Part shown: positions 19,160-39,677 of the stretch, in pieces | Layout: each line of letters begins with the position of its first letter | Position numbering within the stretch: the stretch's first letter is position 1 | NCBI RefSeq assembly: GCF_001507545.1 | Contig: NZ_LQBP01000003.1 | Location: 372,001 to 436,000, forward strand | Length of the DNA stretch: 64,000 nt | Reading direction: 5' to 3' | From: Ruegeria profundi | Lineage (GTDB): Bacteria > Pseudomonadota > Alphaproteobacteria > Rhodobacterales > Rhodobacteraceae | Position numbers and translations under genes: made by a program | The notes under the pieces: generated by a model | The model's database searches: none | The model's input: the letters and a program-made list of their open reading frames with translations, nothing else | Told to the model about the DNA's origin: nothing

Positions 19160-19828
19160 TCATGATGGTCCTGCCTGAGCGACGATTGTAGCGATAATAC
19201 CGTCGCTTACATCCCAACGCCCGCGCAGGTTCAAACTGCCGTCAAGGAGTATGCGTGCATTAAACGTTTGATCCTCAGCGTTAAATTCCAATGACGCGTC
19301 TGAAAAATCGAGAGAGGTTTGCCGTACGGGATACCAAGCCTTGAACACCGCCTCTTTGGCGCAAAAAAGAATGCATCCGTTCAAAGGTGCGCGGGAAATC
19401 CACTCGTGTTCATGCCCATGTGCAACTACCTGCGCAACCTCTGCCGATATGGGTTCGGCAGGTTCAGCATCGATACCTAGCCAATCGGTTTGAGATTTTT
19501 CGCTGACGGCACACGCGACGTATTCGCTGCAGTGCGTGATTGAGCCCCGTACACCTTTTGGCCAATCAGGTGCGCCAGAAGGCAAGATCCCGAGATGTGG
19601 GACATCACGTCCGATCCGGGCCAAAGCTGCATGCGCGCAAGACCGGCCGGCCATGTGATCACGCTGACGCTTGCGCACTGCCCGCTGAACGTTCGACGCA
19701 TAGCGCTGATCCAAGTCCGCCCAAGCTGTCGCGCCGAAGCGTTCCACGACGGTTACGTCGCTGGATGCGAGGCGACTGAGTAGACCCAGCCTGTCAGTAA
19801 CAGCCTTCGATCTGCTGTTGTCATTCAT
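19160..19828 (-). CDS. 4'-phosphopantetheinyl transferase (EntD/Sfp superfamily)
   Basis: Transfers phosphopantetheine from CoA to the active serine of carrier proteins. 222 aa, EntD-like. Motifs: AGRSCAHAAL, WPKGVRGSITHC, LGIDAEPAEP (Mg-binding Asp/Glu) and LFCAKEAVFKAWYP (the KEA..K catalytic helix). It lies 840 bp upstream of, and divergent from, the giant synthase gene, so it is the natural candidate to activate the three carrier domains of that locus. The ribosome site before the ATG is weak. Confidence 0.88.
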   Translation of the reverse strand: MNDNSRSKAVTDRLGLLSRLASSDVTVVERFGATAWADLDQRYASNVQRAVRKRQRDHMAGRSCAHAALARIGRDVPHLGILPSGAPDWPKGVRGSITHCSEYVACAVSEKSQTDWLGIDAEPAEPISAEVAQVVAHGHEHEWISRAPLNGCILFCAKEAVFKAWYPVRQTSLDFSDASLEFNAEDQTFNARILLDGSLNLRGRWDVSDGIIATIVAQAGPS

Positions 19829-20667: not shown

Positions 20668-23600
20668 ATGCTTGATTATTTGACGGACAAGAGTTTTGAA
20701 GTCATTGGGTTTTCAATCCCAAACTACCTCGGATCAAAAGTACCGCATGCAGCGTGCAAGGCGAAACATGTTGGCTGCCTTGACCTTGAATATGCTGATC
20801 CGACGCGATTGGACGTTTTGACCGCAGTCACCGATCTGCGTGCCGCTGCGCCAGCGTTATGGGGGCTAAAGCTCACATCGATGGGTCTCGACGCCGCGCT
20901 GGATTCGGATCTGTTTTGCGACGGGGCTCCGCACACGATTGTAATTGTCGGAGAGCTTGCGAAGGCCACTGGCGGGACGATCGCTCGACTGAGGTCCGAG
21001 GCACCTGAAACTCGTGTGCTGGTCGAAGTTGTTTCGCGGTCGCAAATTGCGTTAGAGGCCGACCTTTCCCCAGACGGCTGGCTGGCAAAGGGGCATGAAG
21101 CTGGCGGGCGAAGCGGAGACGAGACGGCGTTTATCCTTCTTCAGGCGCTGCGTCAGGTTACCGATTTGCCGATCATCGTACACGGTGGCGTCGGGCCGGA
21201 TACGGTTGCTGCGCTTCGCTTGGCTGGTGCGGCAGGGGTTGCATTGGATTGGCCCCTTGCGCTGCTGGATGAGGCCCTGACACCTGCACCGATGCACCGG
21301 GCGCTGAAAGTTTTCGACGGCAGCGAAACGCTTCACGTCGCGGGTGTCGACAATATCGGGTACCGGATGTTCTGGAGACCTGATCACGCCCCGGCACGTT
21401 CAGTGAAGGAAGTGGCAGATGCCAGCCCCTCCGCACTCGCTGCAGCGGTAGCAGATCTCTTGGACCCAGCTACTGGCGGTGGTGTCTGGTTGGTGGGTCA
21501 GGATGCATGTTTCGCCAAGCCGATGCTTGAAAAATATGGGCGAGTGGGCACTGCTTTGAATGATCTGTTGGCGCGTTCCAAAGACCAGATTGCTTCGGCG
21601 CATGCGCAGCGTGCTTTGGCGCGCAACAGCGCTTTTGCACAGAAACTGGGTACCGAATTTCCGATACTTCAGGGCCCGATGACCCGGGTAAGCGACCGCG
21701 CGGCCTTTGCTGATTGCGTTGCCGATGGCGGTGGGTTGCCATTCATCGCACTTGCGCTCATGCGGGGCAAAGAGGCCAACGAACTTGTCACTGAAACCAA
21801 GGCATTGCTAGGCAATAAGCCTTGGGGAGTAGGCGTGCTGGGCTTTGTAGATGACGCTCTGCGCGAAGAGCAGTTAGAGATCATTCTGCGGAACGCGCCG
21901 GACTTTGCCCTGATCGCGGGTGGGCGGCCGGACCAAGCACTAAGGCTCGAAAAGTCCGGAATCCCGACGTTCCTGCATGTGCCATCACCGGGGCTACTCA
22001 AAGTCTTTCTGGAGCAGGGATCGCGGCGCTTCATCTTTGAAGGAAGGGAATGTGGTGGTCATGTAGGGCCGCGGTCGAGTGCGGTGTTGTGGCAACAGGC
22101 AATGGACGCGTTGCGCGCATTCTACGGCAGTGATCCAATAGACTGTCAGATCTTGTTCGCTGGCGGCATTCATGACGCATGCAGCTCGGCGATGGTTGCC
22201 ACAATTGCGTCCGACGCGGTGGCGCAGGGTGCCGAAGTTGGTGTTCTCATGGGGAGCGCCTACATCCTGACAAAGGAGGCCGTCGCCGCAGGCGCGGTGG
22301 TGCAGCGGTACCAGGACCTCGTTCTGGGTGCGCGTGATACTGTTTTGCTGGAATCCGGTGTCGGCCATGCGACCCGTGTGGTCCGAAGCACGATCGCGGA
22401 CGAATTCCAAAGCGAAAAGGCCCGACTGCTGGCTGAAGGTGTCGCGGCCGACGATGTCAAGGATGCGCTTGAGCGGTTTAATGTCGGCAGGTCTCGCGTC
22501 GCCTCCAAAGGCATCGACCGTAACCCGAACTTCGGAAAGGTCGATGGGGCAGCAAAATACATCGAAGTACCCGAAGCCGATCAGGAACGGCAAGGGGTGT
22601 ACATGATCGGACAATTGGCGTCGCTACGCAGCAGCGCGTCGACTATTGCCGATTTACACGCGGACGTCTGCGATGGGGCAGTCTCTTATTTGAAAGAGGC
22701 CGTGCCGGAGGCGCCGGGTCAGGAAGCATTCGTCGAAGGCCCGGGGTCACGCGTCGCGATTACCGGCATTTCGACCATTCTGCCGAAAGCGCAGGATCAG
22801 TTTCAGTTTTGGGAAAATATTCTCGACAAGGTGGATGCGATCACCGAAGTACCCGACCGAAGGTGGGACTGGCGGCGGTATTTTGACGAAGACCGGGATG
22901 CGCCAGATAAATCCTATTCCCGCTGGGGCGGGTTCGTGGATGAGATGCCTTTTGATCCGATCCGCTACGGTATTCCACCGAATTCGATGACCAGTGTCGA
23001 ACCGCTGCAGTTGCTGACGCTCGAACTCGTGCGCAAGGCGCTTGAGGACGCCGGGTTCGAAGACGGTGTAATCCCGGATGCTGCACTTCGGCGCCGCACG
23101 TCCGTCATCATTGGCGTAGGCGGCGGCGCAGCGCCGATGGGTCAGCAATATGCGGTGCGCGCAACGTTGCCAGCACTTTTGGGACAGGTGCCCGAGGCGG
23201 TTACCGAGCGGCTACCGCAATGGACCGAGGACAGTTTTCCAGGGGTTTTACTGAACGTGATCGCGGGTCGCGTCGCGAATCGGTTCGATCTGGGCGGAGT
23301 GAACTTCACCGTTGACGCAGCTTGTGGATCTTCCCTTGCGGCAGTGATGACCGGTGTACGCGAGCTTGAGACCGGGACATCCGACATGGTGATTGTTGCG
23401 GGCGTCGATGCGTTCATGAGCCCATTCGATTTCGTCGCTTTTTCCAAGACACGGGCGTTGTCCGCCCGTGGCCGGTGCCGGACTTTTGATGCCAGTGCGG
23501 ATGGAATTGCAATCTCGGAGGGGCTGGTGGCAATGGTGTTGCGCCCGTTAGAGGCCGCCGAGGCAACCAGTGACCGGATCTATGCCGTTCTCCGCGGTGT

Positions 23601-26600
23601 GGCAGGTGCATCGGACGGGCGCGATCTGTCGCTGACGGCGCCGCGGCCGGAAGGGCAGCAGGAAACGTTGCGCAGAGCCTATGAGCGGGCGGGTATTTCA
23701 CCGTCAAGCGTTACCCTCGTTGAAGCCCACGGGACGGGAACGATTGTGGGTGACCGTACCGAGGTTCAGAGCCTCACCAGCGTGTTTGGGCCCACGCGCG
23801 CTGACAAACAGTTCTGCGCGATCGGGTCTGTCAAATCGATGATCGGCCATACGAAGGCGGCGGCTGGCTGTGCCGGAATGGCCAAAATGGCTTTGGCGCT
23901 GCACCACCGCATCTTGCCGCCGACCATGCATGTGGTCGAGCCGAACCCGACCGCGAACTTCCAGGAAAGTCCGTTTTATCCAAATGTCGACGCCCGGCCG
24001 TGGATGAAAACCGGAACCAACCCAAGGCGGGCGGGCGTAAGCGCTTTCGGATTTGGCGGCACGAATTTCCACGCCGTGCTTGAGGAATACAATGGTGGGT
24101 ACCTGCCACGGCATCAGGCCCCGGTGCGACAAAATTGGAGCCATGAGTTACTGTTGTTTTCGGCAGACGACCCAGCGGTTCTGGTGACGGATCTGCGAAA
24201 GGCGGCCATCGCCTTCGAGACAGAGGTGTGGACTTTGCGCGACGTGGCAGCCAGCCTTGCGGCGCGGTTTGACGCGGGTGCCGGTGCCCGCTTTGCCATG
24301 GTGGCAAGCTCGCTTGCTGATGCAGCGACGCGCATCGTTGCTGCGGCGGGCGCGATAGAAACAGGTGCGAGCGATGTGCGCGAGGTTGATCCGATGGGCT
24401 CCTATTTCGCGCAAGGTGAACCGCTGAAGACGGATCAGATTGCGTTTTTGTTTCCGGGGCAGGGGTCACAATATCCCAACATGGCTGCCGGTCTGACTAT
24501 GTACTTCCCGGCCATGCGCAAATCGCTCGATACGGCACACGAACATTTGCGCGATTTACTTGATGTGAGCTTTGCCGATCAGATCTACCCTCGGCCTGCA
24601 ATGTCGGAGGCCGAGAAATCAGAGCAGGTGAAACGCCTGATGCGTACGGATGTGGCACAGCCGGCGATTGGAGCCATCTCAAGCGGTATACTGTCACTTT
24701 TGAGGGCGTTCGGAGCGGATGCGGGTGCCGTGGCCGGTCACAGTTTTGGTGAACTGTCGGCGCTGAGCGCGGCGGGCGCTTTTGGTGAGCGAGAACTGTG
24801 GTCTTTGGCGCATGCACGCGGTGACGCCATGATAAGCGAAGGTGGCGACGATCTCGGAACGATGACTGCGGTGAGTGCGTCTGAAAACGAGATCCGCGAA
24901 GCCGTATCTGATCTGACTGGCATCACATTCGCCAATTACAACGCTCCCAGACAGACCGTGCTGGCAGGAGCGGAAGATGACCTGGCGCGCGTTGAAAACG
25001 CTCTGCATGCGGCAGAGATTGCTGCGCGCCGTTTACCGGTCGCCTGTGCATTTCACTCTGAATTCGTAGCTCCTGCGCGGGAAAAGTTGGCCCGGGCCAT
25101 TGCCGATACGCCCATGACCGCACCGAAACTGTCAGTGTTCGCCAATGAGACGGCCGCCACGTACCCGCCAGATGCCGAGGCTGTGGCCGAAACACTTACC
25201 CGACACCTGACGCAGCCAGTTCGTTTCATGGGCAGTATCGAAGCAATGTACGAGAGCGGCATTCGGTTGTTTGTTGAAGTGGGGCCGAACGCAGTGTTGT
25301 CGCGCCTCACAAAGCGCATTCTGGGCGACAAGAGCCATCTGGCGGTCGCGACCGATGTTGAGGGGCGGAGCGGCGTACACCAGTTCCTCGCGGCTTTAGG
25401 CGCGATGAGCGCTGCGGGGGTGAAACTCGACCTCGGTGCCTTGTGGCAGGATCGTGCGAGTACGTCCGTCGACGTCGAGAACTGGAAGCCAGAAGAGGAA
25501 ACAGAAAACGGATTGCTTTGGATGGTTGATCTGGCCTCTGTTCGGCCAGCGGGGAAAGAGGTTTCGCGTATCGGACTGGCGGCCCGGATCGAAGACGATA
25601 CCGTGATGATACCACCTTCTCCATCCACTCCGCCTGCGCCGTTTCCGGAGCCTGCCACTGGGCCGATGATTTCGATCCCCGGTCAGGGTTCTGAAGCCGC
25701 GGTGGACGTTATGCGCAAGCACCATGCGCTCATGGCGCAGATGCTCGAAAGCCACCAGTCGACCATGCAAATGTTGCTGGGCGGTGCGGCCGCGCCCGCC
25801 ACAAACCGGCCCGACATCGCGATCGCACCAGTTCCAACGCCATCAACTGGTGAGCCGAAACCGTCGGAACCGCGGGCGGCTGAAACTATCGCGGTGAATG
25901 CTGACCCGACACCTTCGCCGGACGTGACTCCCTGCGACGCGCAGCAGGTGACCCATAAACTGCTGGAATTGATATCTGAACGCACAGGCTATCCGCCGGA
26001 AATGCTGGGCCGCGAGATGAACCTTGAGGCCGACCTTGGCATCGACTCCATCAAGCGGGTGGAGATTCTGGCCAACCTGCGTCTGCACTTCCTTGCCGAA
26101 GCGGGTGAAGCGGCTCACGAGCTGATGGGCCCGGTAGCACGCGAACGGAGCGTGGATGGAATTGCGGCGCGGTTTATGGAGGTTGTGGATGCCGTCAGCG
26201 GCGATGCACCAGCGGCGGCCACGCTCACTCATGCGAAGGCAGACCCAGTCTCGTCGAATCCTGAACCGGAAGGGGTGGCCCAAAAGCTGCTGGAATTGAT
26301 TTCCGAACGTACAGGCTATCCACCGGAAATGCTGGGCCGCGAGATGAACCTTGAGGCCGATCTGGGCATCGACTCCATCAAGCGGGTGGAGATTCTGGCC
26401 AGCCTGCGTCTGCACTTCCTTGCCGAAGCGGGAGAAGCGGCACACGAGCTTATGGGCCCGGTAGCACGCGAACGGAGCGTGGATGGAATTGTGGCGCGGT
26501 TTTTGGAGGTTGTAGATGCCGTCAGCGGCGATGCACCTAAAGCTGCCAGTGTTTCCGCGGTAGAGGACGCACTGCCTGCGCCAAGCTATATGGACGGACA

Positions 26601-28173
26601 AACGCGCCGCTTTGTCATGGTGCCATCAACCCCATCAGTGGTGAACCCCAAACCATGGGTTTCATCCGGGGCGACCTATGTCATTACCGAGGACGGGCAG
26701 GGGGTAGCCACCGCTCTGGCCGCGCTTATAGAGGGCGCGGGCGGCGTGCCGATTGTTTTGCCAGTTGAAGGTCTGACGCCCGAAAACGTGGCGTCGGTGA
26801 CCGAAGGTCATAGCGTTGCGGGTCTAATTCATTGCGCGCCACTGGTCTCTGCTGACGAAGTGCCTTTTGAGGCCAAGCGCCTGATGGCGCAGGTGCGCTC
26901 GTCGACCGAAAGCTTGTATGTGATCCTGTCGGTGGTTGGTCCGGCGCTGGCGACCCGGTCTGATGCGGTCATTGTCGTGGCAACGCGCATGGGTGGCTCA
27001 TTTGGGTTTGATGACAACACCACACTCGACCCGACGGCTGGGGGACCGGTTGGTGTTCTCAAGACCCTCGACAAGGAATGGGCCGCGGCTCATGTCCGTG
27101 CGGTCGACGTGGCGGAGACTTACGGGCCTGAAGACATTGCTGGTATCATTTGCGACGAAGCCGGGCGCCGTGATGACGCGGTCGAGATTGGTTGGGTTGA
27201 TGGTAAGCGTGTCGAACTTTTGGCCGAACCGCGTCCGATTTCTTTGATCGAGGGTGCGAAGGACCAGAATCTTCTGGGCGAGGGTTCTGTTGTACTGGTT
27301 ACAGGTGGCGCGCGCGGGATCACAGCGCGGTGTTTGCTTTGGCTGGCAAGTAAATATCAGCCTCGCCTTGTCGTCGCAGGATCCTCTCCGGTTCCTGATG
27401 CAGAAGAAGCGGCTGAAACAGCGGCCATCACCGATCCGATGGCCCTGAGAGCTCATTTGGCGCAGCATGCTAAGGCAGAAGGCGCGAAAGTCACCATTGC
27501 CGAGATTGAGCGTACCAGTCGTGCTCTTCTAAAGGCACGTGAAATCCGTGCCAATATCGCCGCACTCGAAGCGGCCGGGGCGCAGGTCGAATACCATCAG
27601 TGCAACGTGCGGGACGGTGCAGCGTTGACCAACTTGATCGAAGGCCTTTACGAAACCTACGGACGGATAGACGGGGTGATCCACGGTGCGGGTTTGATCG
27701 AGGATCAACTGGTCATCGACAAGACACTCGACAGCTACCGCAGGGTCATGGCCACCAAGGCCGAGAGCGCCTTTACCCTTGTGCAGGCCCTGCAGCCGGA
27801 AACCGTCAAGTTCTGCGCGTTCTTCACATCAGTTGCGGGGCGCTTCGGTAACCGCGGGCAGGGCGATTACGGTGCCGCGAATGAGATTGTTTCAAAGCTG
27901 GCCCGCCGTCTGGATCAAGCTTGGGAAGGTCGTGTTGTCGCGATCAGCTGGGGGCCATGGGACAGTGACGGCATGGTTTCGGACGAGGTCAAAGCGCAGT
28001 TTGAGGCATTGGGTATTGAGGCACTTGATCCTGACCTTGGCATTCGCGCGCTTGAGGCCGAGATCCTTAGCGATACCGATCGTGTGCCTGAAGTTGTCTG
28101 GGGTCTTGGTCCCTGGGCCAGCGATCTGACAGACGACCTCCGGTCAAAAGACACGATCAAGGCCGCCGAATGA
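20668..28173 (+). CDS. Giant iterative synthase: PfaD-like ER domains - KS - AT - ACP - ACP - KR
   Basis: 2501-aa multidomain enzyme of the PUFA/secondary-lipid synthase type. Residues about 1-230 form a TIM-barrel (NMO/PfaD-like) with AKGHEAGGRSGDET; about 325-650 a second, complete-looking one with ILQGPMTRVSD and GRECGGHVGP (His465). KS about 695-1120: Cys886 in DAACGSS, His1021 in EAHGTGT, His1061 in GHTKAAAG. AT about 1255-1540: Ser1359 in GHSFGE. Two ACPs with LGIDSIKRVEIL, Ser1794 and Ser1903. KR about 2195-2480: VTGGARG and Tyr2401 in YGAAN. ATG 20668 has AGGAG 9 bp upstream. Overlaps the next gene by ATGA. Inferred role: chain extension, keto reduction and enoyl reduction of an acyl chain. 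Confidence 0.93.
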   Translation: MLDYLTDKSFEVIGFSIPNYLGSKVPHAACKAKHVGCLDLEYADPTRLDVLTAVTDLRAAAPALWGLKLTSMGLDAALDSDLFCDGAPHTIVIVGELAKATGGTIARLRSEAPETRVLVEVVSRSQIALEADLSPDGWLAKGHEAGGRSGDETAFILLQALRQVTDLPIIVHGGVGPDTVAALRLAGAAGVALDWPLALLDEALTPAPMHRALKVFDGSETLHVAGVDNIGYRMFWRPDHAPARSVKEVADASPSALAAAVADLLDPATGGGVWLVGQDACFAKPMLEKYGRVGTALNDLLARSKDQIASAHAQRALARNSAFAQKLGTEFPILQGPMTRVSDRAAFADCVADGGGLPFIALALMRGKEANELVTETKALLGNKPWGVGVLGFVDDALREEQLEIILRNAPDFALIAGGRPDQALRLEKSGIPTFLHVPSPGLLKVFLEQGSRRFIFEGRECGGHVGPRSSAVLWQQAMDALRAFYGSDPIDCQILFAGGIHDACSSAMVATIASDAVAQGAEVGVLMGSAYILTKEAVAAGAVVQRYQDLVLGARDTVLLESGVGHATRVVRSTIADEFQSEKARLLAEGVAADDVKDALERFNVGRSRVASKGIDRNPNFGKVDGAAKYIEVPEADQERQGVYMIGQLASLRSSASTIADLHADVCDGAVSYLKEAVPEAPGQEAFVEGPGSRVAITGISTILPKAQDQFQFWENILDKVDAITEVPDRRWDWRRYFDEDRDAPDKSYSRWGGFVDEMPFDPIRYGIPPNSMTSVEPLQLLTLELVRKALEDAGFEDGVIPDAALRRRTSVIIGVGGGAAPMGQQYAVRATLPALLGQVPEAVTERLPQWTEDSFPGVLLNVIAGRVANRFDLGGVNFTVDAACGSSLAAVMTGVRELETGTSDMVIVAGVDAFMSPFDFVAFSKTRALSARGRCRTFDASADGIAISEGLVAMVLRPLEAAEATSDRIYAVLRGVAGASDGRDLSLTAPRPEGQQETLRRAYERAGISPSSVTLVEAHGTGTIVGDRTEVQSLTSVFGPTRADKQFCAIGSVKSMIGHTKAAAGCAGMAKMALALHHRILPPTMHVVEPNPTANFQESPFYPNVDARPWMKTGTNPRRAGVSAFGFGGTNFHAVLEEYNGGYLPRHQAPVRQNWSHELLLFSADDPAVLVTDLRKAAIAFETEVWTLRDVAASLAARFDAGAGARFAMVASSLADAATRIVAAAGAIETGASDVREVDPMGSYFAQGEPLKTDQIAFLFPGQGSQYPNMAAGLTMYFPAMRKSLDTAHEHLRDLLDVSFADQIYPRPAMSEAEKSEQVKRLMRTDVAQPAIGAISSGILSLLRAFGADAGAVAGHSFGELSALSAAGAFGERELWSLAHARGDAMISEGGDDLGTMTAVSASENEIREAVSDLTGITFANYNAPRQTVLAGAEDDLARVENALHAAEIAARRLPVACAFHSEFVAPAREKLARAIADTPMTAPKLSVFANETAATYPPDAEAVAETLTRHLTQPVRFMGSIEAMYESGIRLFVEVGPNAVLSRLTKRILGDKSHLAVATDVEGRSGVHQFLAALGAMSAAGVKLDLGALWQDRASTSVDVENWKPEEETENGLLWMVDLASVRPAGKEVSRIGLAARIEDDTVMIPPSPSTPPAPFPEPATGPMISIPGQGSEAAVDVMRKHHALMAQMLESHQSTMQMLLGGAAAPATNRPDIAIAPVPTPSTGEPKPSEPRAAETIAVNADPTPSPDVTPCDAQQVTHKLLELISERTGYPPEMLGREMNLEADLGIDSIKRVEILANLRLHFLAEAGEAAHELMGPVARERSVDGIAARFMEVVDAVSGDAPAAATLTHAKADPVSSNPEPEGVAQKLLELISERTGYPPEMLGREMNLEADLGIDSIKRVEILASLRLHFLAEAGEAAHELMGPVARERSVDGIVARFLEVVDAVSGDAPKAASVSAVEDALPAPSYMDGQTRRFVMVPSTPSVVNPKPWVSSGATYVITEDGQGVATALAALIEGAGGVPIVLPVEGLTPENVASVTEGHSVAGLIHCAPLVSADEVPFEAKRLMAQVRSSTESLYVILSVVGPALATRSDAVIVVATRMGGSFGFDDNTTLDPTAGGPVGVLKTLDKEWAAAHVRAVDVAETYGPEDIAGIICDEAGRRDDAVEIGWVDGKRVELLAEPRPISLIEGAKDQNLLGEGSVVLVTGGARGITARCLLWLASKYQPRLVVAGSSPVPDAEEAAETAAITDPMALRAHLAQHAKAEGAKVTIAEIERTSRALLKAREIRANIAALEAAGAQVEYHQCNVRDGAALTNLIEGLYETYGRIDGVIHGAGLIEDQLVIDKTLDSYRRVMATKAESAFTLVQALQPETVKFCAFFTSVAGRFGNRGQGDYGAANEIVSKLARRLDQAWEGRVVAISWGPWDSDGMVSDEVKAQFEALGIEALDPDLGIRALEAEILSDTDRVPEVVWGLGPWASDLTDDLRSKDTIKAAE
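25948..26540 (+). repeat. Tandem near-identical ACP-coding repeat
   Basis: Two ACP-coding units spaced 327 bp apart (active-site serine codons at 26047 and 26374) are almost identical over about 255 bp, including silent positions, while the Pro/Ala-rich linkers between them differ. This indicates recent duplication or gene conversion. Tandem ACPs are typical of PfaA-type PUFA synthases, where copy number affects output. Confidence 0.9.
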
Positions 28174-31100
28174 AAGAGGATAGGCCCGATATTCAAGCTG
28201 CAGACACATCGTGCGAACCTATTGCGATAGTGGGCATGGGATGCGTGTATCCCAAAGCCCGAAACAAGGCGGCCTTTTGGCGCAATATTGTGGACAAGGT
28301 CGACGCCGTCACAGAGGCGCCTGAAGACTGGGACGGAGCGCAATACCTGGACCCGGACAGCGATGCCAATGACCGCGTCTACACCAATCGGGGCGGGTTT
28401 CTCGGGGATCTGGCGCGGTTCGATCCTTTGCGGCATGGCGTAATGCCGAACTCTGTCGATGGCGGTGAGCCGGACCAGTTTCTGGCACTGGAGATTGCAG
28501 CTGACGCGGTCGAGGATGCACAGTTCGAGATGCGCCCTATACCCGGTGATCGAGTGGCGGTGATCCTGGGCCGCGGAACCTATATCAATCGCGGATTTGC
28601 AAATGTAGTCCAGCACGGAGTGATGGTAGATCGGGTGATCGACATCCTGCGCACCTTACATCCCGAAACCGGCGATGAAGAGGCCGACGCGCTCAAGGCG
28701 GAACTCAAAGCATCACTGCCGCCGTTCAATTCAGAGATGGCGGCCGCGCTGGTCCCAAACCTGGTGACGGGCCGAATTTCAAATCGGCTGAACTTTCGGG
28801 GCGCCAACTACATTATCGACGCTGCCTGTGCCTCCTCCCTCGTGGCGTTGGATCGCGGTGTTGCTGACCTGCGCGCGGGTTCTTGCGACATGGCGCTTGT
28901 TGGCGGTGTTCATGCGTCAACCCCAGCCCCAATCTATCAAATTTTCTGCCAATTGGGAGCATTGTCGCGCAAGGGCAAAATCCGGCCTTTTTCGGCCGAA
29001 GCAGACGGGACGCTGCTGGCAGAGGGCGTCGGCATACTGTGCATAAAGCGTTTGTCCGATGCCGAATTGGCCGGTGATCGGATTTACGCGCTGGTGCGCA
29101 GCGTTGGTGTGGCGAGCGACGGAAAGGGCATGTCGATCCTTGCGCCCCTTATCGAAGGCGAGCGTCTTGCGATCCGTCGGGCCTATACGTCGGCGAACGT
29201 GGCACCGGATACGGTTGGATTGGTCGAAGCGCATGGTACGGCAACCAGCGTTGGTGACGCGACCGAGATTGACGCGCTGAAGGCTGAATTCGGGGACATG
29301 AAACAGGGCTGTGCCATAGGGTCGGTCAAATCAATGATCGGGCATTGCCTGCCCGCCTCGGGGTCTGCCGGGCTGATCAAAGCCGCGCTGGCCCTGCACC
29401 ACCGGGTGTTGCCACCAACTCTGATTGATACGTCCAGCCCCGACCTGGGTCTTGATGACACCGGGTTCTACCTCAACACCGAAGCGCGTCCATGGATCCA
29501 CGGGCGCGAAACACCGAGGCGCGCGGGCGTGAACGCGTTTGGTTTCGGGGGGATCAATTCGCACGCGATCCTTGAGGAATATCGCGGGGCCGCGGAACCA
29601 AAGGCAGCGGTGTCACGTCCCTCCGAGATAATTGCAATGGCTGCGCCAGATCAGGTGCAGTCGCTGTCTCTGATCGAAGCGGTCGCAAGAAAGGTTCACC
29701 AGGCCGATGACCTGACCGCCTGCGCAGCCGCGTTGAATGCGAAGCTCGGTGCCGGACAGGTGCGCATGGCCGTGACAGGCGGCACACGGGAAGATATCCT
29801 TGCTCGTCTCGATCAGATCAAGGCGGCGCTGCAGAAAGGCCGAAAACGCCTGCGCGACCGGCGCGGTGCATACATGTCTGCTGAGCCGCTTGCGGTAACA
29901 GGCAAGGTCGCCTTCCTGTTCCCAGGCGAGGGCAGCCAGTATCGCAACATGTTGGCCCCGCTGATGCTGCATTTTCCGCGCATGCGTGAGTGGTTCGATA
30001 TCGTGGACGGAGCCTATCCCAATGAAACGGGTCGGCAGCGCGTCAGCGATGTGTTTTTCCCGCCACCGCTGGAGACCCCGTCGGACGATGATCTTTGGCG
30101 GATGGATGTGGGGCCGGAGGCGATCTACGCGGCCAATATGGCGATGGCCACTCTGTATCAGCAGATCGGGTTGAAGCCAGACATGTTACTCGGCCACTCA
30201 ACAGGAGAATACGCGGCGCTTTCGGCGGCCGGTGTGACCCAACATGAAGATGTCTCGCACCTTCAACGGGATATACGCGATCTGAACGCGGTTTTTGCCG
30301 CTGCCGAGCGGGATGGCGCGATTGCCAAAGGCACGCTCTTCACGATCGGCCCGGTGAATGTGACCAAGTTGCGAGCTGCGCTTGAGGCGCGCGATGACGT
30401 CTTTCTTGGCATGGACAATTGCGCAGCACAGCAGGTGGTCGTGGCAACAAGTGCCAAGGCTGCGGATTGGGTGCCTGAACTGGCCAAGTCTCTGGGCGGC
30501 TTTTGCGATACATTGCCTTTTGGTCGCGCCTATCATTGTCCTGCATTCGCACCGTTTAGCGGGCGGCTCGAAGAATTTCTGAGTCAAATTGACATCCGCG
30601 CACCTAAGCTGCCGGTCTATTCCTGCCTGACCACCAAGCCGTTCCCGAATACCTCCAAAGACATAAAGTCTTGGATGGCCGCGCAATGGTCCAGCGAGGT
30701 GCGTTTTCAGGACACGATACGGCACATGTATGACGACGGCGCGCGTATCTTTGTTGAATGCGGTCCGCGGAACAATCTGACGTCGTTTGTCGGGGATGTG
30801 CTGCGCAAACAACCGCATGTGACCGTAGCTGCCGATACAGTCGGGCGGCAGGGGCTCACCCAGTTGCATCATCTGGCCGCCCAGCTTTTTGCCGAGGGTG
30901 TGCCTCTTGATCTGGATGCGCTCTCTGGCACTGCGGAAAACGTGCAGAGTAATGCGAAACCGCTGAAGATGGGCTTGCAGCCGATGGCGTTGGGCGAAGG
31001 CCGACGTCCTGCGCGTAAACGGCAAGCTCAGCAAGCGCCTGAAAAGATCATCCCCGACGGGCCACCTGCAGCACCATCGCCGCTCGAGACCCTGATTGAT

Positions 31101-32861
31101 GGTTACTTCGACACGATGAACAAGATGATGCAGACGGAACAGAACGTCATGCAGGCCTTCTTCGCAGGCAGAAACACGCAGCCCAAGAGCGCTGCGCCCA
31201 ATGAAGGCGACCGTTTCCCGATGCTGAGCGAGGTGGATGTGAGCGCAGACGCCCGGTCGCTGCGCGCGCTTATCCATCTCGATCACCAGATTGCGCCTTA
31301 TCTTGCCGATCACGCGTTTGGCCGCGCAATTTCGGGGAATGATCCGGATCGACATGGTCTGAGCGTTGTGCCGCTCACCTTCACGATGGAGGCGTTGGCC
31401 GAGGCCGCCGCTGCGCTACGGCCAGGTCTGAGGGTCGTGGGTCTTCGCGAAGTGCGCGCCTCGCGATGGATCACTGTTGAAAAGCCGTTGTCGCGGAAAC
31501 TTGAGGTCACGGCGGAGTATCTGACCGTTGACGGCGATAAAACGATCATCCGGACACGCATTCGCGATGCTCAAGGTCCGGTCCTGCGTCCGGTGATTGC
31601 GGAAGCTGATATCGAGCTGGCCGCAAACTACGCGCCTGCGCCTACAGCGTCAGCCTCTGCCTTCGAAGGCACGGTAGGAGCATATTGGTCATTGAAGGAT
31701 GTCTATCAGCGCATAATGTTTCACGGGCCGCGCCTGCAGGCCGTGAAGTCTATGCATGTTGCTACACCCACCGCTGCCGAAGGTGTGTTGATCGGGTTGC
31801 CTCAAGACGATCTTCTTGCCGCCACGCGCATGCCGGAATTCGAAATTGATGCCATAACGCTGGATGCCGTCGGTCAATTGGTTGGTGTCTGGTCAGCGGA
31901 CCAATTGGATACGGCCTTTCACATTTTCCCGTTCCGTGTGGAGCACGTTGAGATCTTCCGCCAGATGCTTGCCCCTGACGAAGAGGCGACATGCCGCTGT
32001 GAAATAAAGCTTTTGAGCACCGATGAGATGCGGTCGGACATCGATGTGGTGACGGCAGACGGACATCTTATGTGCCGCATCAAGGGTTGGTGGGACAAAC
32101 GCTTTAACCTACCGGATCCGTTCTTCCACGCACGGTTGGACCCTGCTGGAAATGCGCTGTCGCGGATCATTGAGGTCGCACCGCTTGACGGTTTGAAAAT
32201 CGTGATCACGGAATGCATCAGCGACGGTTTGCTGGCCAACAGCGGGGGAATTTGGGCAGGTGTGTTAGCTGGGCTCGTCCTGTCAGACAGCGAGGCGGCG
32301 ATTTTGCGCGCCCATAGCGGCTCGGAAACCGAAAGGTTCGACTGGTTGCGCCAGCGGGTCGCGGCCAAGGATGCCATTCGCGCCTGGCTAAGTTCGGGAC
32401 TATGTCCGGCGGACATCGAGATTGAAAATGTTTCTAACAATCAAATGCGCGTGGCAGCGGGCTGGCCTGCAGATTGGGGGACAGCTCCGCGGATCGTGAG
32501 CGCGTGTGTCGGGCAGATGGCTGTCGCTGTCGCGACAGATCCCGGCGAATATGCCAACCTGTACATGGGGGTCGCCAGCCTTGCCGCAGATGGAATGACG
32601 GCGGATTTGAGTGCCGCTGACGTGGCCCTGCTGCCGTCCGAGCCAAACCTTCGCGCATCTGCGATTTCCTGCCTGCGCGCCTTGCGACAGGCGATGGGGC
32701 AGGGCGCACGTATCACGCAACTCAACACTGCGAAGGAGTATGCCGTTGTGCAAAGACCCGGCACCACCGACCCGCTGAAAGTCCGTTTCGTTGAGGACGG
32801 AAAGTCAGGCGTCGTCATCGCCCTTCTCGCAGAAACACATCGAATAAAGGAAAAGGAGTGA
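28170..32861 (+). CDS. Second iterative synthase: KS - AT - DH - degenerate PPTase-like domain
   Basis: 1563 aa. KS at about 10-440: Cys220 in DAACASS, His355 in EAHGTAT, His392 in GHCLPASG, so it looks active rather than a chain-length-factor type. AT at about 580-880 with Ser677 in GHSTGE. A Pro/Ala linker leads to a hot-dog dehydratase-like region (about 1035-1330) with His1048 in ADHAFGRAI followed by VVPLTF. The C terminus (about 1385-1530) resembles the integrated PPTase of PksE/HglE-type synthases: WLRQRVAAKDAIRAWL is kept, but the expected GVDxE reads GVASLA and the KEA..K helix is lost. Start overlaps the previous stop (ATGA). No ACP or KR here, so it should act with the upstream synthase. 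Confidence 0.9.
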   Translation: MKEDRPDIQAADTSCEPIAIVGMGCVYPKARNKAAFWRNIVDKVDAVTEAPEDWDGAQYLDPDSDANDRVYTNRGGFLGDLARFDPLRHGVMPNSVDGGEPDQFLALEIAADAVEDAQFEMRPIPGDRVAVILGRGTYINRGFANVVQHGVMVDRVIDILRTLHPETGDEEADALKAELKASLPPFNSEMAAALVPNLVTGRISNRLNFRGANYIIDAACASSLVALDRGVADLRAGSCDMALVGGVHASTPAPIYQIFCQLGALSRKGKIRPFSAEADGTLLAEGVGILCIKRLSDAELAGDRIYALVRSVGVASDGKGMSILAPLIEGERLAIRRAYTSANVAPDTVGLVEAHGTATSVGDATEIDALKAEFGDMKQGCAIGSVKSMIGHCLPASGSAGLIKAALALHHRVLPPTLIDTSSPDLGLDDTGFYLNTEARPWIHGRETPRRAGVNAFGFGGINSHAILEEYRGAAEPKAAVSRPSEIIAMAAPDQVQSLSLIEAVARKVHQADDLTACAAALNAKLGAGQVRMAVTGGTREDILARLDQIKAALQKGRKRLRDRRGAYMSAEPLAVTGKVAFLFPGEGSQYRNMLAPLMLHFPRMREWFDIVDGAYPNETGRQRVSDVFFPPPLETPSDDDLWRMDVGPEAIYAANMAMATLYQQIGLKPDMLLGHSTGEYAALSAAGVTQHEDVSHLQRDIRDLNAVFAAAERDGAIAKGTLFTIGPVNVTKLRAALEARDDVFLGMDNCAAQQVVVATSAKAADWVPELAKSLGGFCDTLPFGRAYHCPAFAPFSGRLEEFLSQIDIRAPKLPVYSCLTTKPFPNTSKDIKSWMAAQWSSEVRFQDTIRHMYDDGARIFVECGPRNNLTSFVGDVLRKQPHVTVAADTVGRQGLTQLHHLAAQLFAEGVPLDLDALSGTAENVQSNAKPLKMGLQPMALGEGRRPARKRQAQQAPEKIIPDGPPAAPSPLETLIDGYFDTMNKMMQTEQNVMQAFFAGRNTQPKSAAPNEGDRFPMLSEVDVSADARSLRALIHLDHQIAPYLADHAFGRAISGNDPDRHGLSVVPLTFTMEALAEAAAALRPGLRVVGLREVRASRWITVEKPLSRKLEVTAEYLTVDGDKTIIRTRIRDAQGPVLRPVIAEADIELAANYAPAPTASASAFEGTVGAYWSLKDVYQRIMFHGPRLQAVKSMHVATPTAAEGVLIGLPQDDLLAATRMPEFEIDAITLDAVGQLVGVWSADQLDTAFHIFPFRVEHVEIFRQMLAPDEEATCRCEIKLLSTDEMRSDIDVVTADGHLMCRIKGWWDKRFNLPDPFFHARLDPAGNALSRIIEVAPLDGLKIVITECISDGLLANSGGIWAGVLAGLVLSDSEAAILRAHSGSETERFDWLRQRVAAKDAIRAWLSSGLCPADIEIENVSNNQMRVAAGWPADWGTAPRIVSACVGQMAVAVATDPGEYANLYMGVASLAADGMTADLSAADVALLPSEPNLRASAISCLRALRQAMGQGARITQLNTAKEYAVVQRPGTTDPLKVRFVEDGKSGVVIALLAETHRIKEKE

Positions 32862-32866
32862 GTCCA

Positions 32867-33163
32867 ATGCCAGTTGCCATTGAAACGGCCAAGACTGCGA
32901 TGCGCGAAATTTTCCATGATCTGGCAGAGGACTTGGAGGAGGAGCCGGTTGAATTCACCGCCGATACCAAACTGGTGGATCTGGGCGTGGAGTCGATCAG
33001 CCTGATCTATCTCATCTCGGAACTGCAGCAACACTTCAATCTTGAGGAGCGGTTGTTCCAACACCTGCGTGAAACCGAGCGGCTTCTGGTGGACATGCAA
33101 GTTAGCGACATTCTCAACGGTGTTGTCGCGGCATCTGCCGGTCAGGAGGTGAGCAATGCCTGA
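32867..33163 (+). CDS. Free-standing acyl carrier protein
   Basis: 98 aa, single ACP fold; the modified serine is Ser43 in LGVESISLIYLISELQ, where Glu replaces the usual Asp before Ser. ATG 32867 is placed by AAGGAG; a GTG at 32858 overlapping the previous stop is an alternative. Immediately downstream of the KS-AT-DH synthase and overlapping the next gene by 8 bp. It may carry the starter, hand over the finished chain to the tailoring enzymes, or serve a separate step; sequence alone does not decide. Confidence 0.88.
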   Translation: MPVAIETAKTAMREIFHDLAEDLEEEPVEFTADTKLVDLGVESISLIYLISELQQHFNLEERLFQHLRETERLLVDMQVSDILNGVVAASAGQEVSNA

Positions 33164-34760
33164 GAGACTTGTCAAAACGCTGCTCATCGGCCTTGATGGG
33201 GCGACCTATGATATCCTCGATCCGCTTGTGTCCGAAGGCGTAATGCCCAATCTCGGTCGGTTGATGGAAGGTGGTAGCCGGGGCATTCTGCGCTCGACAA
33301 TGCACCCTCTCACACCGCCTGCTTGGGCGACGCTCATGACCGGGCGATCACCCGGCAACCATGGCGTATTCGACTTTATCCGGGTGGACCGGACAAACAG
33401 CACGCCGACCTACACCCTTACCACATCCGCCGACCTCAAGGTGCCAACAATCTGGCAGATCGCGTCCGAAGCAGGCATGCGGGTCACGACATTGAACTAC
33501 CCCACCATGTTCCCGGCCAAACCGATCGATGGTGTGGTCATCCCGGGTTATGTGCCGTGGTCCTATCTTGGCCGTGCAATCTATCCCCGCGAAACATACA
33601 AAATGCTGAAAGAAGAAGGCGTTTTCAAAGCACGCGAGATGTCAACTGATTGGCAGCACGAGCGCAAAGCCGTGCAGGGGCTCGCGGAAAATGACCTGCA
33701 GGATTGGGTTCAGTTCCATATCACGCGCGAGCGACGCTGGTTCGAGATCACTCTGAAGCTGATGGAACGCGTGCCGAGTGAACTGACATCCGTTCTTTTT
33801 GATGGTGTCGACCGTATTCAGCACCTCTGTTACCACCTCATCGATCCGGCGACGCGTGGCGACTATACATCTCAGAGTTCGGTCAGGGCGCGCGACTTGG
33901 CGCTGCAGTATTTCCGTGATGTGGATAACTATATTGCCCAGATGGTCGCAAAAGCGGGTGATCAGGCAAGCGTAATCATTGCCTCGGATCATGGGTTTAC
34001 GCGGTCCGGTGCGCGAATTTTCTATGCGAACAGCTGGCTGGAAAGCTTGGGTTTGTTGAAATGGAAACCCGATGTGCCTTTTGACAATCAAGGGCGTGTG
34101 GCACTTGATGAAAATACTGAAGCGACAACGCTTATCGATTGGGGCCCAACCAAAGCCTATGCGCTCAGTTCCTCAAGCAATGCGATCTTCATCCGAGTAG
34201 CTTCGGAAGACGATCCGGATGGAGTACCCCCCGAGCAATATGAAGCCTTTCGCGATGATCTGATTTCCAAGCTAAAGAGCCTTGTTGATTCCGCTTCTGG
34301 AAAACCGGTCGTTCGCGATGTGTTCACGCGCGAGATGGCGTTCCCAGGCACAGAAAGCGCGCGGGCCCCTGATCTGACCCTGCAGATGGCGGATTATTCC
34401 TTTCTTTCTGTGTTGCGCGCGGATGAGCCGGTCAAGGACCGGAAGATCCCTTATGCAACGCATCACCCGGATGGGGTCATAATTGCCAGCGGCCCGGCTA
34501 TCAAATCATCTGGACGGGTCGAGCCGATGCGCATCGTCGATGTGGCTCCGACGGTGCTTTATTCCTTGGGCCTCGATATTCCGAGCAGCTTCGAGGGCCG
34601 GGTGGGTACGGACCTCTTTGATCCTGCATATGTCGCGACTCACGTGCCGGAGATTTCCGATACTGCTGGCAAAGAGTCTGGAACAGACAGCAGCGAAACG
34701 CTGAGCGGCGACGCTGAAGAGCAGATTAGAGCGCGTCTTAAAGCGCTTGGATATTTGTGA
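33156..34760 (+). CDS. AlkP-superfamily type I phosphodiesterase-like protein
   Basis: 534 aa, alkaline phosphatase/nucleotide pyrophosphatase superfamily. Metal-site motifs are present: GLDGATYD (Asp14), the nucleophile region LTPPAWATLMTGRSPGNHGVFDF-type sequence with Thr53, DGVDRIQHLCYH, ASDHGF and ATHHPDGVII. No signal peptide, so probably cytoplasmic. AGGAGG precedes the ATG, which overlaps the ACP gene. Cytoplasmic members near lipid and polyketide loci may act on phospho- or sulfo-esters of the product or precursor; this is inference. Relatives often are annotated only as alkaline phosphatase family. Confidence 0.85.
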   Translation: MPERLVKTLLIGLDGATYDILDPLVSEGVMPNLGRLMEGGSRGILRSTMHPLTPPAWATLMTGRSPGNHGVFDFIRVDRTNSTPTYTLTTSADLKVPTIWQIASEAGMRVTTLNYPTMFPAKPIDGVVIPGYVPWSYLGRAIYPRETYKMLKEEGVFKAREMSTDWQHERKAVQGLAENDLQDWVQFHITRERRWFEITLKLMERVPSELTSVLFDGVDRIQHLCYHLIDPATRGDYTSQSSVRARDLALQYFRDVDNYIAQMVAKAGDQASVIIASDHGFTRSGARIFYANSWLESLGLLKWKPDVPFDNQGRVALDENTEATTLIDWGPTKAYALSSSSNAIFIRVASEDDPDGVPPEQYEAFRDDLISKLKSLVDSASGKPVVRDVFTREMAFPGTESARAPDLTLQMADYSFLSVLRADEPVKDRKIPYATHHPDGVIIASGPAIKSSGRVEPMRIVDVAPTVLYSLGLDIPSSFEGRVGTDLFDPAYVATHVPEISDTAGKESGTDSSETLSGDAEEQIRARLKALGYL

Positions 34761-34767
34761 TGATGCC

Positions 34768-35685
34768 ATGCCACGCATAGAAATAGACGGGACAAAACTC
34801 CATTATCAGCAAATTGGATCCGGGTCCAATTTGCTGCTTGTCCACGGTCTGTTTTCAAGCATTGGGTTCTGGTGGGGTCCTCTGGCGTTCACATTGGCCA
34901 AGAACCATCGCGTCACAGCTCTTGATCTGCGCGGGCATGGGCTGTCAGGCATGACCCAGCGGGGCTACAGCGCAAATGATTTGGCAAAGGACATTCTTGC
35001 CTTGGCAGACCATCTGGGCTTGCGAGATATTCATGTTGTTGGACATAGCTATGGCGGTGCGATTGCGCTAGCCGCAGCACTTCAGGCCAGAGATAAGATC
35101 ATACGCATCACTCTTGCAGATGCCTGGGTCCCCGCCTTGCAGGCTCAGACTTATACTCCCAATCTCAGAAAATGGTCGGCTCTTAAAGAGAAGCTGAAAT
35201 TGAAGGGCCTACAAGGAGAGGGCGACTGGCCGATGGTGGCGATGGCTTTCCTTGAAGAAATTGCGGAAGCGCCGGACGACACCCTCGCAAATATGCAACG
35301 CGGGCAGTATGGGCGTGGCTGGATGCCGACAAAGCACAATTCCAACGCCATACGGCGCTGGCGGCGACTGATGGCAACAACACACGCCTGGAAGGAGTTC
35401 TATGCGACAAGCGTGCTAACGAGCGCAGCGCTTCGGAAACTCGAGACACCCGTCCATATAATTTACGGCAAAAAGTCTGGCTACCACCAAACCCGGGACG
35501 CATTGCTGAAACACCTGCCGAATGCGACCAATCACGAAGTATCAGGTGGTCACTACTTCCCGCTTCTACAGCCGCGCGGGCTTACTGATCTGATCGCGAA
35601 CCCGCCGAAAACAGCCGCGCCAAGCGTTCAATTTCATTCGCGTAGAGAGTTGGTCGATCAGTCAATGGAATATGACCGTGGCTAA
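34768..35685 (+). CDS. Alpha/beta hydrolase
   Basis: 305 aa, alpha/beta-hydrolase fold without a signal peptide. The oxyanion region is LLLVHGLFSS, the nucleophile Ser94 lies in VVGHSYGGA and the catalytic His262 in GGHYFPL. The start ATG 34768 lies 7 bp after the previous stop. In this locus it could be a thioesterase-like enzyme that releases or transfers the chain from an ACP, since neither synthase has a recognisable thioesterase domain; esterase or lactonase activity is equally possible. Confidence 0.85.
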   Translation: MPRIEIDGTKLHYQQIGSGSNLLLVHGLFSSIGFWWGPLAFTLAKNHRVTALDLRGHGLSGMTQRGYSANDLAKDILALADHLGLRDIHVVGHSYGGAIALAAALQARDKIIRITLADAWVPALQAQTYTPNLRKWSALKEKLKLKGLQGEGDWPMVAMAFLEEIAEAPDDTLANMQRGQYGRGWMPTKHNSNAIRRWRRLMATTHAWKEFYATSVLTSAALRKLETPVHIIYGKKSGYHQTRDALLKHLPNATNHEVSGGHYFPLLQPRGLTDLIANPPKTAAPSVQFHSRRELVDQSMEYDRG

Positions 35686-38296
35686 GGATAACTCATTCGA
35701 CACACCTGCCGGAAGCGGCGACGGGCTGAACAGCGGAAATTTCCGCCAGTTGGCAAAGAACGGCATAGGCGATCCCGACAATGCTTATGTTCACGGAATG
35801 GATTTTTTCGAAGGACGTCTATACTGCGGTATGACGCGCAACTCATTTAAGTTGCTCAGACTTTTCCCGCCGATTGATCCGCCTGCGCTGGATCCCTGGC
35901 CCGTGGACGTGCCACCAAAGGTGCAGGACTTGGATATGCAGGGCCAAATCTGGCGTTGGACACCTGGTGAAGACACTTGGGAGATGGCGTACCGTTCACC
36001 GATGATCCCAGGCAAGCAAGGCGAGCCTGCACCTCGGGATTTGGGGTATCGCGGCATGACCGTTTTTCAGGGGGACTCTGACCCGAAACCCGTGCTGTAC
36101 GTTTCAACTATGTCGACAGTGCTGCGCGGGTGCGCAGCCCATGTCTTGCGATCCGAAGACGGGTTGAATTTTGAGCCAGCATCCGAACCCGGGATCGGCA
36201 ACGACAGGATTTCGACCTTCCGCGAGTTGGTCTCTTTTGACGGTTACCTTTATGCCCCGCCTGCGGGTGAGGGTATCCAGTTCAATTCAAACAGAACTGG
36301 CGTGATCAAGCGTTCGAGAGACCCAAAGCCCGGAAACTGGGAAGTGGCCATGGATGTGGGATTTGGCGATCCCAATAACAACGGCGTCTTCATGATGACC
36401 CAGGCGAACGGTCAACTCTACGCAGGCACTTTCAATCACTTCCAAGGCTACCAGATTTGGACCACGCCACCTTGCGGTGACGGGCCGTTGCAATGGCGCA
36501 AGGTCATAGACCGAGGTGCGTACCGGGGGCCTTTGTCGGAAATCGCAATGGGCATGTGCGAGTTCAACGGGGCCTTGTATGTCGGCAGTTCGATCCAGAA
36601 CGGCGGGTATGATCGCACCAATCTGGTTGGACCAGGCGCGGGCGAGATTATCCGGATTTGGCCAGATGACAGCTGGGATCTGCTGGTCGGCATGCCGCGC
36701 GAGACGCCGGACGGTGTTAAGTACCCGCTCTCCGGGATCGGGCCCGGCTTTGACAACCTGTTTTCTGGTTACACTTGGCGGATGTGCGTGCATGACGGGT
36801 GGTTGTATGTTTCGACCTTCGATTGGAGCGTCTTTCTGCAGTATGCGCACCGGCCATCGCCTACATCGCGGCGACTTGTGAATGGTATCGGTTTCGAGCA
36901 GCTCGCTCAGATCGGGGGCGGGTTTGAGCTTTGGCGGACCAAGGATGGGATCACGTGGGTTCCGGTCACAATAAACGGGATGAACAACCCCTATAATTAT
37001 GGCGGGCGAACGATGGTCTCGACACCTGTGGGTCTGTGCGTGGGCACGGCTAACCCGTTCGGGGGTTTGAGCCCGGCGCGCTTTGCATCGCGATGGGAGT
37101 ATCATGAAAACCCCGACGGAGGAACGGAGGTTTTCCTCGGAAATACTAGTCACGAATCCTACACTGTGCCCGACGCCGCGAAAACCACGGAGGAGGCCTC
37201 GGATCAGCAGGCCAGCTCTTTTACCGAGGTGGACTTCGCGATTACCGGCTGCACCGGCTATATCGGCAAACATCTCGTTCCGAAGTTGTTGGAGCGCGGC
37301 TATCGGGTGCGGTGCCTGGTTCTTGCAGGCACAGAGACGGAGTTGCCGGAAAGCGATCAGATTGAATTGATCGTCGGAGATTTGGCTAATGTGGATGCGC
37401 TGAAACGCTTGGTAAATGGCGCGCGCATCGTTCTCCATATGGCGGCGCGTTTGGCCGGGTCCTGCACGGTACCGGAGCTTCGCGCGACGAACGTGCAGGG
37501 TACGCACGACCTGTTGCGCGCTTGCTCTGACTCGCCGGTGCTGGAGCGGTTCGTCTTTTGCAGTTCTGTGGCTGTCTATCAGAACCAGTTCAGTCCGAAA
37601 GACTGGCCGATCCACGAATCTCATGCGTTGCGCATAGATGGTGGTCACGACCTCGCCGACTATGGAATGTCCAAGATCGCGGGCGAAAACCTTGTCCGGC
37701 ATTACGCCAAACATGATGGCTATGCAGGGACTATTTTACGGTTCGCCCTGGTTTATGGTGTTGGCGATCCGATGTTTGATAAAATGGTGCGTGAGTCTGC
37801 TCCGGCGCCTTTTTTTGGCAAGGGACAGCAAGGGGATCAGCAACGCCAATTCGTCCATGTGACAGACGCTGTCGAGGCGATACTGCGGGCCTGCTTCGAA
37901 GAGAACGCAAAAAACAATGTCTTCAACGTCGCTGGACCGGATGTCGTGACCTATCGTGCGATCGGACGTTTGACCCGCGTATCGATCGGCGCAGCAGTGC
38001 GCGAAGACCTGGTACCAGACCAGACCCGAACCTGGAGCCGATACGTGCAGCAATACGACATTTCTACCGCGAAACGTGACCTTGGGTTCTATCCAAATGT
38101 TACGACTTTCGAAGGGTTACGAGAAATAATTGAGGCCGCGCAATCGGACGGAGACCTTCCCATTCCCCGATACGAAGCGGGGCACACAGCGCTCCTGACC
38201 CAATACGGGATCGGTGGTCTGGCCATGGCACGCGACCCGTTAACGTCATCGTTTGGTCCTGAAACCGGCAATGTGCGGGAAGGGCAAAAGAGATGA
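35672..38296 (+). CDS. Beta-propeller-like protein fused to NAD-dependent epimerase/dehydratase
   Basis: 874 aa. The first 500 residues show repeated blade-like units of the form FxGxLYxGT: FFEGRLYCGMT, QLYAGTFNHFQG, GALYVGSS, WLYVSTFDWS. No enzyme motif is seen there. From residue about 520 it becomes an extended SDR: ITGCTGYIGKHLV (NAD loop), HMAARLAG, SSVAVYQ and YGMSKIAGENL (Tyr-xxx-Lys). The fusion is in one uninterrupted frame. It overlaps the hydrolase stop by 14 bp. Likely a sugar- or lipid-headgroup oxidoreductase or epimerase held on a propeller scaffold; substrate unknown. Confidence 0.82.
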   Translation: MTVAKDNSFDTPAGSGDGLNSGNFRQLAKNGIGDPDNAYVHGMDFFEGRLYCGMTRNSFKLLRLFPPIDPPALDPWPVDVPPKVQDLDMQGQIWRWTPGEDTWEMAYRSPMIPGKQGEPAPRDLGYRGMTVFQGDSDPKPVLYVSTMSTVLRGCAAHVLRSEDGLNFEPASEPGIGNDRISTFRELVSFDGYLYAPPAGEGIQFNSNRTGVIKRSRDPKPGNWEVAMDVGFGDPNNNGVFMMTQANGQLYAGTFNHFQGYQIWTTPPCGDGPLQWRKVIDRGAYRGPLSEIAMGMCEFNGALYVGSSIQNGGYDRTNLVGPGAGEIIRIWPDDSWDLLVGMPRETPDGVKYPLSGIGPGFDNLFSGYTWRMCVHDGWLYVSTFDWSVFLQYAHRPSPTSRRLVNGIGFEQLAQIGGGFELWRTKDGITWVPVTINGMNNPYNYGGRTMVSTPVGLCVGTANPFGGLSPARFASRWEYHENPDGGTEVFLGNTSHESYTVPDAAKTTEEASDQQASSFTEVDFAITGCTGYIGKHLVPKLLERGYRVRCLVLAGTETELPESDQIELIVGDLANVDALKRLVNGARIVLHMAARLAGSCTVPELRATNVQGTHDLLRACSDSPVLERFVFCSSVAVYQNQFSPKDWPIHESHALRIDGGHDLADYGMSKIAGENLVRHYAKHDGYAGTILRFALVYGVGDPMFDKMVRESAPAPFFGKGQQGDQQRQFVHVTDAVEAILRACFEENAKNNVFNVAGPDVVTYRAIGRLTRVSIGAAVREDLVPDQTRTWSRYVQQYDISTAKRDLGFYPNVTTFEGLREIIEAAQSDGDLPIPRYEAGHTALLTQYGIGGLAMARDPLTSSFGPETGNVREGQKR

Positions 38297-38357
38297 TGAA
38301 ATCGAACTCATTAAGACCTCGGTCGGCAGCAGCCGCCAGCACAAGCAAGGAGGAAGT

Positions 38358-39635: not shown

Positions 39636-39677
39636 TTTGGGGTATCGTTAACCGTCAAGCCAGATGTGGCAGTTGAG

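Follow-up and report, generated by a model that had tools for sequence, protein, structure and literature searches.

The window, by which we mean the whole stretch of 64,000 nucleotides analysed here, carries a real and complete orphan synthase. Its class had probably been listed earlier, with no product assigned, and its PPTase adds a small twist. On balance, we understand it as belonging to the ArsA-containing branch of iterative type I fatty acid/secondary-lipid synthases; it would make a long, largely saturated chain, pass it through a KS2/AT2 relay and submit it to tailoring. The synthase is encoded by two giant genes on the forward strand, gene 1 (20668..28173, 2501 aa from ATG) and gene 2 (28170..32861, 1563 aa), which overlap by four bases, gene 2 overlapping in turn the gene of a free ACP (32858..33163, also forward, 101 aa from GTG, with a PP-binding match in Pfam). 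The ATG at 20668 is backed as a start by a Ruegeria profundi protein, 97% identical, residue 1 of which aligns there. Pfam finds NMO (two stretches), KS, AT, ACP (two) and KR along gene 1, and KS, AT and PS-DH along gene 2; with E-values of 8e-34 to 2e-61, chance is excluded for KR, AT1 and both KS. Reading the motifs as well gives FabK-like half 1, FabK-like half 2, KS1, AT1, ACP, ACP and KR for gene 1, and KS2, AT2, DH and a degenerate PPTase for gene 2. The cluster runs past 33163, as the following genes overlap and recur in relatives. The first-pass annotation of this DNA had proposed a complete, split synthase without an assigned product, a view borne out by the Pfam domains, the free ACP and the tree of KS domains discussed below. 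Its open reading frames and the parts that it named (two KS, two AT, three ACPs, KR, DH and ER) are all present, according to Pfam and to motifs read directly. The order that it gave to these domains also holds; what has to be revised is the ER, made of two FabK-like halves of which only the second has the GGH histidine, and the "PPTase-like" end, which is dead by motif.

Gene 1 opens with a pair of FabK/NMO-like halves. The first (20668..21603, approximate limits) reads KGHEAGGR, with no His at the GGH place, and matches the FabK model TIGR03151 weakly (E 3.6e-4), while the second (21631..22449), a probable enoyl reductase supported by TIGR03151 and by FabK structures, reads EGRECGGH; the score of the model on this ER lies below the model's own cut-off. 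The GGH histidine is catalytic in FabK. Aligned, it is found in 14/14 rows of the second half and in 0/14 rows of the first, ArsA included, and the pair must therefore be old; catalysis of the kind expected for the second half is improbable for the first. A possible parallel, by analogy, is found in thraustochytrid PUFA synthases, where two ER domains are described as forming a heterodimer (PMC13311796). Downstream come KS1 (22747..24189), with an intact Cys-His-His triad (DAACGSS/EAHGTGT/KSMIGH) and in one clade with the KS of ArsA; AT1 (24445..25353), of malonyl type with GHSFGE, Arg and AFHS; the tandem ACP1 and ACP2 (25954..26418, limits approximate), with LGIDSI at 26035 and 26362, that is, serines at residues 1793 and 1902 of the protein, the free ACP having GVES instead; and KR (27289..27963), where VTGGARGI, FTSVAG and GDYGAAN are present. 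Gene 2 provides the DH (31290..32130, approximate limits), with its His in LADHAFG and its Asp in LDAVGQ. The meaning of the KR and DH motifs is taken at the level of their families. All these domains lie on the forward strand, and since gene 1 has a malonyl-type AT, a KS, two ACPs, a KR and a FabK-type ER, to which gene 2 adds the DH, one full reductive cycle is encoded.

The first half of gene 2 holds a second, different KS-AT pair. KS2 (28215..29738, forward) also keeps its Cys-His-His triad (DAACASS/EAHGTAT/KSMIGH) and belongs to a clade of its own. AT2 (29913..30824, forward) has the GHSTGE nucleophile and is without the malonyl-binding Arg. In an alignment of 20 AT rows, whose Arg column was read by eye and where the FabD row was badly cut, hence ignored, and the PfaB row poorly aligned, the Arg that holds the malonyl carboxylate is kept in all eight rows of AT1, ArsA, Solibacter and PfaA, and is missing from all ten AT2 rows; motif I of AT2, also read by eye, has lost its Gln. 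The same Arg is missing from PfaB, an enzyme reported to act on long chains (PMC12895367), and we therefore infer that what AT2 would move is a long chain, not malonyl.

The end of gene 2 (32337..32858, forward, approximate start) derives from a PPTase. It has no match to PF01648, and it aligns with the PPTase domains of relatives, with the His of SxSHxG, GxDxE and WxxKEA all lost in the window. Among the 26 aligned rows (the window, 24 of 120 listed proteins and one Beijerinckia protein), DxE is kept in 19, of which 18 also keep KEA. The two motifs are absent from the seven others, namely the window and proteins P0005-P0010; six of these are also without the His, which P0010 keeps, and the E of DxE persists in P0007 and P0010. 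These seven rows make a single clade (SH-aLRT 100), with two intact rows as its sister. Calls by a loose text pattern disagreed with the alignment, scoring P0007 and P0010 as intact, and the alignment was preferred; by the text pattern alone, P0032, P0037 and P0038 have lost the motifs, while P0039 and P0040 have lost KEA. A stand-alone Sfp/EntD-type PPTase, recognized by PF01648, is encoded nearby on the reverse strand (19160..19828) and is a candidate activator of the ACPs. It is one of two PF01648 matches in the genome, the other, on contig C9, being presumably AcpS. As the fused domain is dead by motif, this enzyme would be the likely activator of the three ACPs and the likely stand-in for the lost fused domain. 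Of 53 further genomes of the genus, 10 have a match to it, never above 36% identity, and the 19 compared loci have none. Beside its gene lies a reverse-strand gene for a GDSL lipase with RTX calcium-binding repeats (17267-18898), which has no match in these 19 loci either.

Beyond the ACP, a series of forward-strand genes begins with a recurring neighbour (33156..34760) for a type I phosphodiesterase of the alkaline phosphatase superfamily, with an NPP/phosphonoacetate hydrolase-like fold: its predicted model resembles phosphonoacetate hydrolase and NPP enzymes, and Asp14, Thr53, Asp278, His279 and His436, putative metal-binding residues, are invariant in 10/10 rows. An alpha/beta hydrolase (34747..35685), candidate for chain release, is followed by a beta-propeller fused to an NAD-dependent epimerase/dehydratase (35672..38296). 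For the propeller, only the fold has support: its model (mean pLDDT 77) has generic propeller matches with low TM-scores that indicate no function. Then come a TPR protein (38253..39635), a 3-beta-HSD/epimerase-like SDR (39666..40640), a two-part SDR protein (40679..42466) and, on the reverse strand, a FabG-like SDR (42459..43259). The forward strand resumes with an HlyD-type adaptor (43550..46333), an export candidate matched in two of five related clusters, once at the end of the stretch; its N-terminal part weakly matches models of peptide-maturation metalloproteases (daptide, YydH/LiaK). A short sulfotransferase-like gene on the reverse strand (46345-46926) has a match in a single one of the 19 compared loci, G367, and 47068-48093 is occupied by long overlapping open reading frames on both strands, the forward one having neither a Pfam match nor a match in those 19 loci. 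A PHB-depolymerase-like esterase (48263..49198) precedes a protein with an N-terminal sulfotransferase (49297..51783), both forward; the C-terminal part of the latter is possibly a PQQ-like propeller (match below cut-off), and this would be a second propeller in the cluster.

Recurrence of these genes was assessed at five of the seven other close loci (G417, G319, G367, G172 and G095), taken as 40-kb stretches, the remaining two, G202 and G276, being on short contigs. Eleven genes are present in 5/5 clusters: gene 1, gene 2, the ACP, the phosphodiesterase, the alpha/beta hydrolase, the propeller-epimerase, the TPR protein, the three SDRs and the esterase, with the third SDR at just 31-32% in two of the five. 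The sulfotransferase is matched in four of the five and, in three of these, over its N-terminal third only, so that sulfation may not be general. Three more distant loci (G265, G373 and G806) can still be matched to the phosphodiesterase, hydrolase, propeller and sulfotransferase.

We can assemble these elements into a scheme in which gene 1, with the DH of gene 2, would, like ArsA, build a long, largely saturated chain. KS2 and AT2 would then extend this chain or shift it to the free ACP, in the place that type III PKSs hold in the ars pathway; the alpha/beta hydrolase would release or transfer it; and tailoring by the SDRs and the phosphodiesterase, joined in most clusters by the sulfotransferase, would convert it to a polar, possibly sulfated lipid, the EntD-type PPTase activating the three ACPs. 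A more detailed form of this scheme, which we put forward as tentative, would have a very long saturated chain built by gene 1 on the tandem ACPs, given a last extension by KS2 and the PfaB-like AT2 and moved to the free ACP, after which phosphodiesterase, propeller-epimerase, SDR and sulfotransferase would yield a sulfated or phosphorylated very-long-chain lipid new to marine Rhodobacteraceae. Against the main reading it must be said that identity to ArsA is just about 41%, over the first 1600 residues, that neither of the two ars-like plasmid clusters examined contains an equivalent of KS2-AT2, and that the loss of the PPTase motifs could mark early decay. The cluster could also be an iterative, partly reducing PKS, using its DH and ER in some cycles only and making a hydroxylated, keto or polyene chain. 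Two different KS-AT pairs and three SDR genes would suit such an enzyme, in which KS2 with the free ACP could add unreduced units; we nevertheless hold it to be rather unlikely, as the reductive motifs are all present and long fatty acids are what the closest characterised relative produces, behenic acid being given for Type P.

Similarity to five relatives of the genus (of 53) ends, in five cases of five, at the 3' end of a tRNA-Ser gene (16099-16106), and the tRNA is found in four of the four that were scanned. To the right of it the window matches nothing in the 20-kb stretches of the five relatives; as similarity stops at this very point, the synthase sits in a region that these relatives lack after the tRNA. 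The boundary, at tRNA-Ser(GGA) (16010-16100), resembles that of an integration hotspot. The synthase genes have a G+C of 0.58-0.60, versus 0.54-0.55 to their left. A search of this genome for the DNA that one relative has to the right of the tRNA, aimed at the other end of the island, returned weak scattered matches only, and a second copy of the 3' end of tRNA-Ser is absent from the window, one more copy existing elsewhere in the genome.

The proteins themselves are sparsely distributed. Among 393 other family genomes sampled, 7 have a relative at 57-62% identity and six more have one at 39-45% (E cut-off 1e-160); close members are thus present in 8/394 sampled family genomes, its own included. 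As Acidobacteria and Nitrospiria MAGs and Streptomyces also have named relatives, the type of lipid may be widespread. Within the genus, 36 other genomes show no comparable protein among the matches listed, which are confined to parts of the KS-AT half and do not exceed 34% identity, and a scan of genome contigs with gene 2 gave one irrelevant KS locus. This isolation within the genus, again among the matches listed, together with the degenerate PPTase domain, might be thought to reveal a decaying, non-functional island. We find this improbable: the remaining active-site motifs are intact, the loss of the PPTase is common to the whole seven-row clade, and Ruegeria profundi keeps both genes, at 97%.

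The KS domains place the synthase among its relatives in a tree of 98 rows. It was built from 108 extracts, less 10 that were short, repeated or a second cut overlapping another; 15 loci whose PKS genes were repeats or close to identical were skipped. The tree was made by a quick method with SH-aLRT support only and an arbitrary root, and it carries long-branch warnings, the Streptomyces KS2 among them. KS1 belongs to a 33-row clade with ArsA (SH-aLRT 97), outside the clade of all seven PfaA rows (100). Within the 33 rows it falls in a subclade of 25 (99), with Solibacter, Brocadia and others, while ArsA is in a subclade of its own (100); as the 25 rows do not include ArsA, the latter is the closest of the characterised relatives without being the closest of all. 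KS2 falls in a separate clade (22 rows, 99) that includes neither the KS nor the CLF of PfaC. It had been proposed at first reading that neither KS is a chain-length factor; with both triads intact and KS2 apart from CLF, this view can be retained. The comparison with PfaA and PfaC that the first-pass annotation had suggested as a check leaves both KS outside the clades of these proteins. A rearranged classical synthase of EPA/DHA-type PUFA is accordingly very improbable, in spite of the fact that the PfaA model TIGR02813 scores 1102 bits on the whole gene 1 protein (cut-off 1010) and that a Roseivivax relative is named PfaA in the database: the PfaD model TIGR02814 has no match anywhere in the genome, there is no CLF, and a single DH is matched. 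None of the pieces reaches the cut-off of TIGR02813 when the gene 1 protein is cut up, and it is worth emphasizing that a PfaA model match on such a protein does not make it a PUFA synthase.

The interest of the cluster lies in that a class of lipid synthases was listed in 2011 without a product, and that the recurring gene set and the named genera now make the question of the product testable; a limited literature search found no product for a close member. We offer as predictions that AT2 is a long-chain transferase, that a PPTase acts in trans and that the product is possibly sulfated.

Compared with known systems, the synthase shares with PfaABCDE the KS-AT-ACP-KR core and an AT2 that, as PfaB, is without the malonyl Arg, and differs from it in the lack of PfaD and CLF, in one PS-DH match in place of a tandem DH and in the clades of its KS; the earlier view that this is not PfaABCD is upheld on these grounds. 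Along gene 1 the domains follow one another as in ArsA of Azotobacter vinelandii (two FabK-like halves-KS-AT-ACP-KR), with 41% identity over residues 16-1606, and its KS1 is in the ArsA clade, within the subclade of 25 rows from which ArsA is absent. In an ars-like plasmid cluster of Beijerinckia gene 1 is laid out alike, and DH-PPTase forms a protein by itself, which matches the second half of gene 2 (26%); this Beijerinckia protein is called ArsD-like by content and place. On a Methylosinus plasmid (locus L062, 12045-34724), an ArsA-like synthase lies near both a KAS III/type III PKS-like gene and another large PKS. Unlike the ars systems, the window has KS-AT fused before the DH-PPTase part, a free ACP, PPTase motifs that are lost and other accessory genes. 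ArsA makes C23-C25 acids that are used by type III PKSs (PMC4824345), and a phenolic-lipid (ars) pathway, which the ArsA-like gene 1 and the Beijerinckia-like end of gene 2 might suggest, is most improbable here, as PF02797 (type III PKS) has no match in the genome, when 3 of 14 control genomes were matched, nor in the Pfam scans of the cluster genes; the chain is therefore not used as in ars.

In the classification of Shulse and Allen (2011), ArsA-type synthases are Type P, with chains such as behenic acid (C22), and Types A-L are split from Types M-T (PMC3098273); the split between PfaA and ArsA in our KS tree fits this division. The same work lists Type O, with a product then unknown, in Dinoroseobacter shibae, Parvularcula and Gloeobacter (PMC3098273). 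As Dinoroseobacter carries both proteins (gene 1 and gene 2 in S76 and S375, gene 1 in PD6, at 55-56% identity), the window probably belongs to Type O, an assignment made at the level of this genus. The first-pass annotation had thought of an undescribed pathway. In kind this is not supported, given the precedents of the ArsA order, the Beijerinckia DH-PPTase match and the homologues in Dinoroseobacter, a genus listed under Type O; no characterised cluster similar over its full length was found in the comparisons made. In an annotated, uncharacterised plasmid cluster of Streptomyces sp. NBC_01243, gene 1 is likewise followed by KS-AT-DH-PPTase, then ACP, then alpha/beta hydrolase; this cluster differs in the glycosyltransferase and methyltransferase that follow, in a PF01648 match that is kept and in one PP-binding match in gene 1. 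For the PPTase of Types M-T an hShxH motif has been given (PMC3098273), and a similar sequence is present in intact relatives and lost in the fused domain of the window. The window thus differs from what is given for Type O in having a dead PPTase domain accompanied by a separate PPTase.
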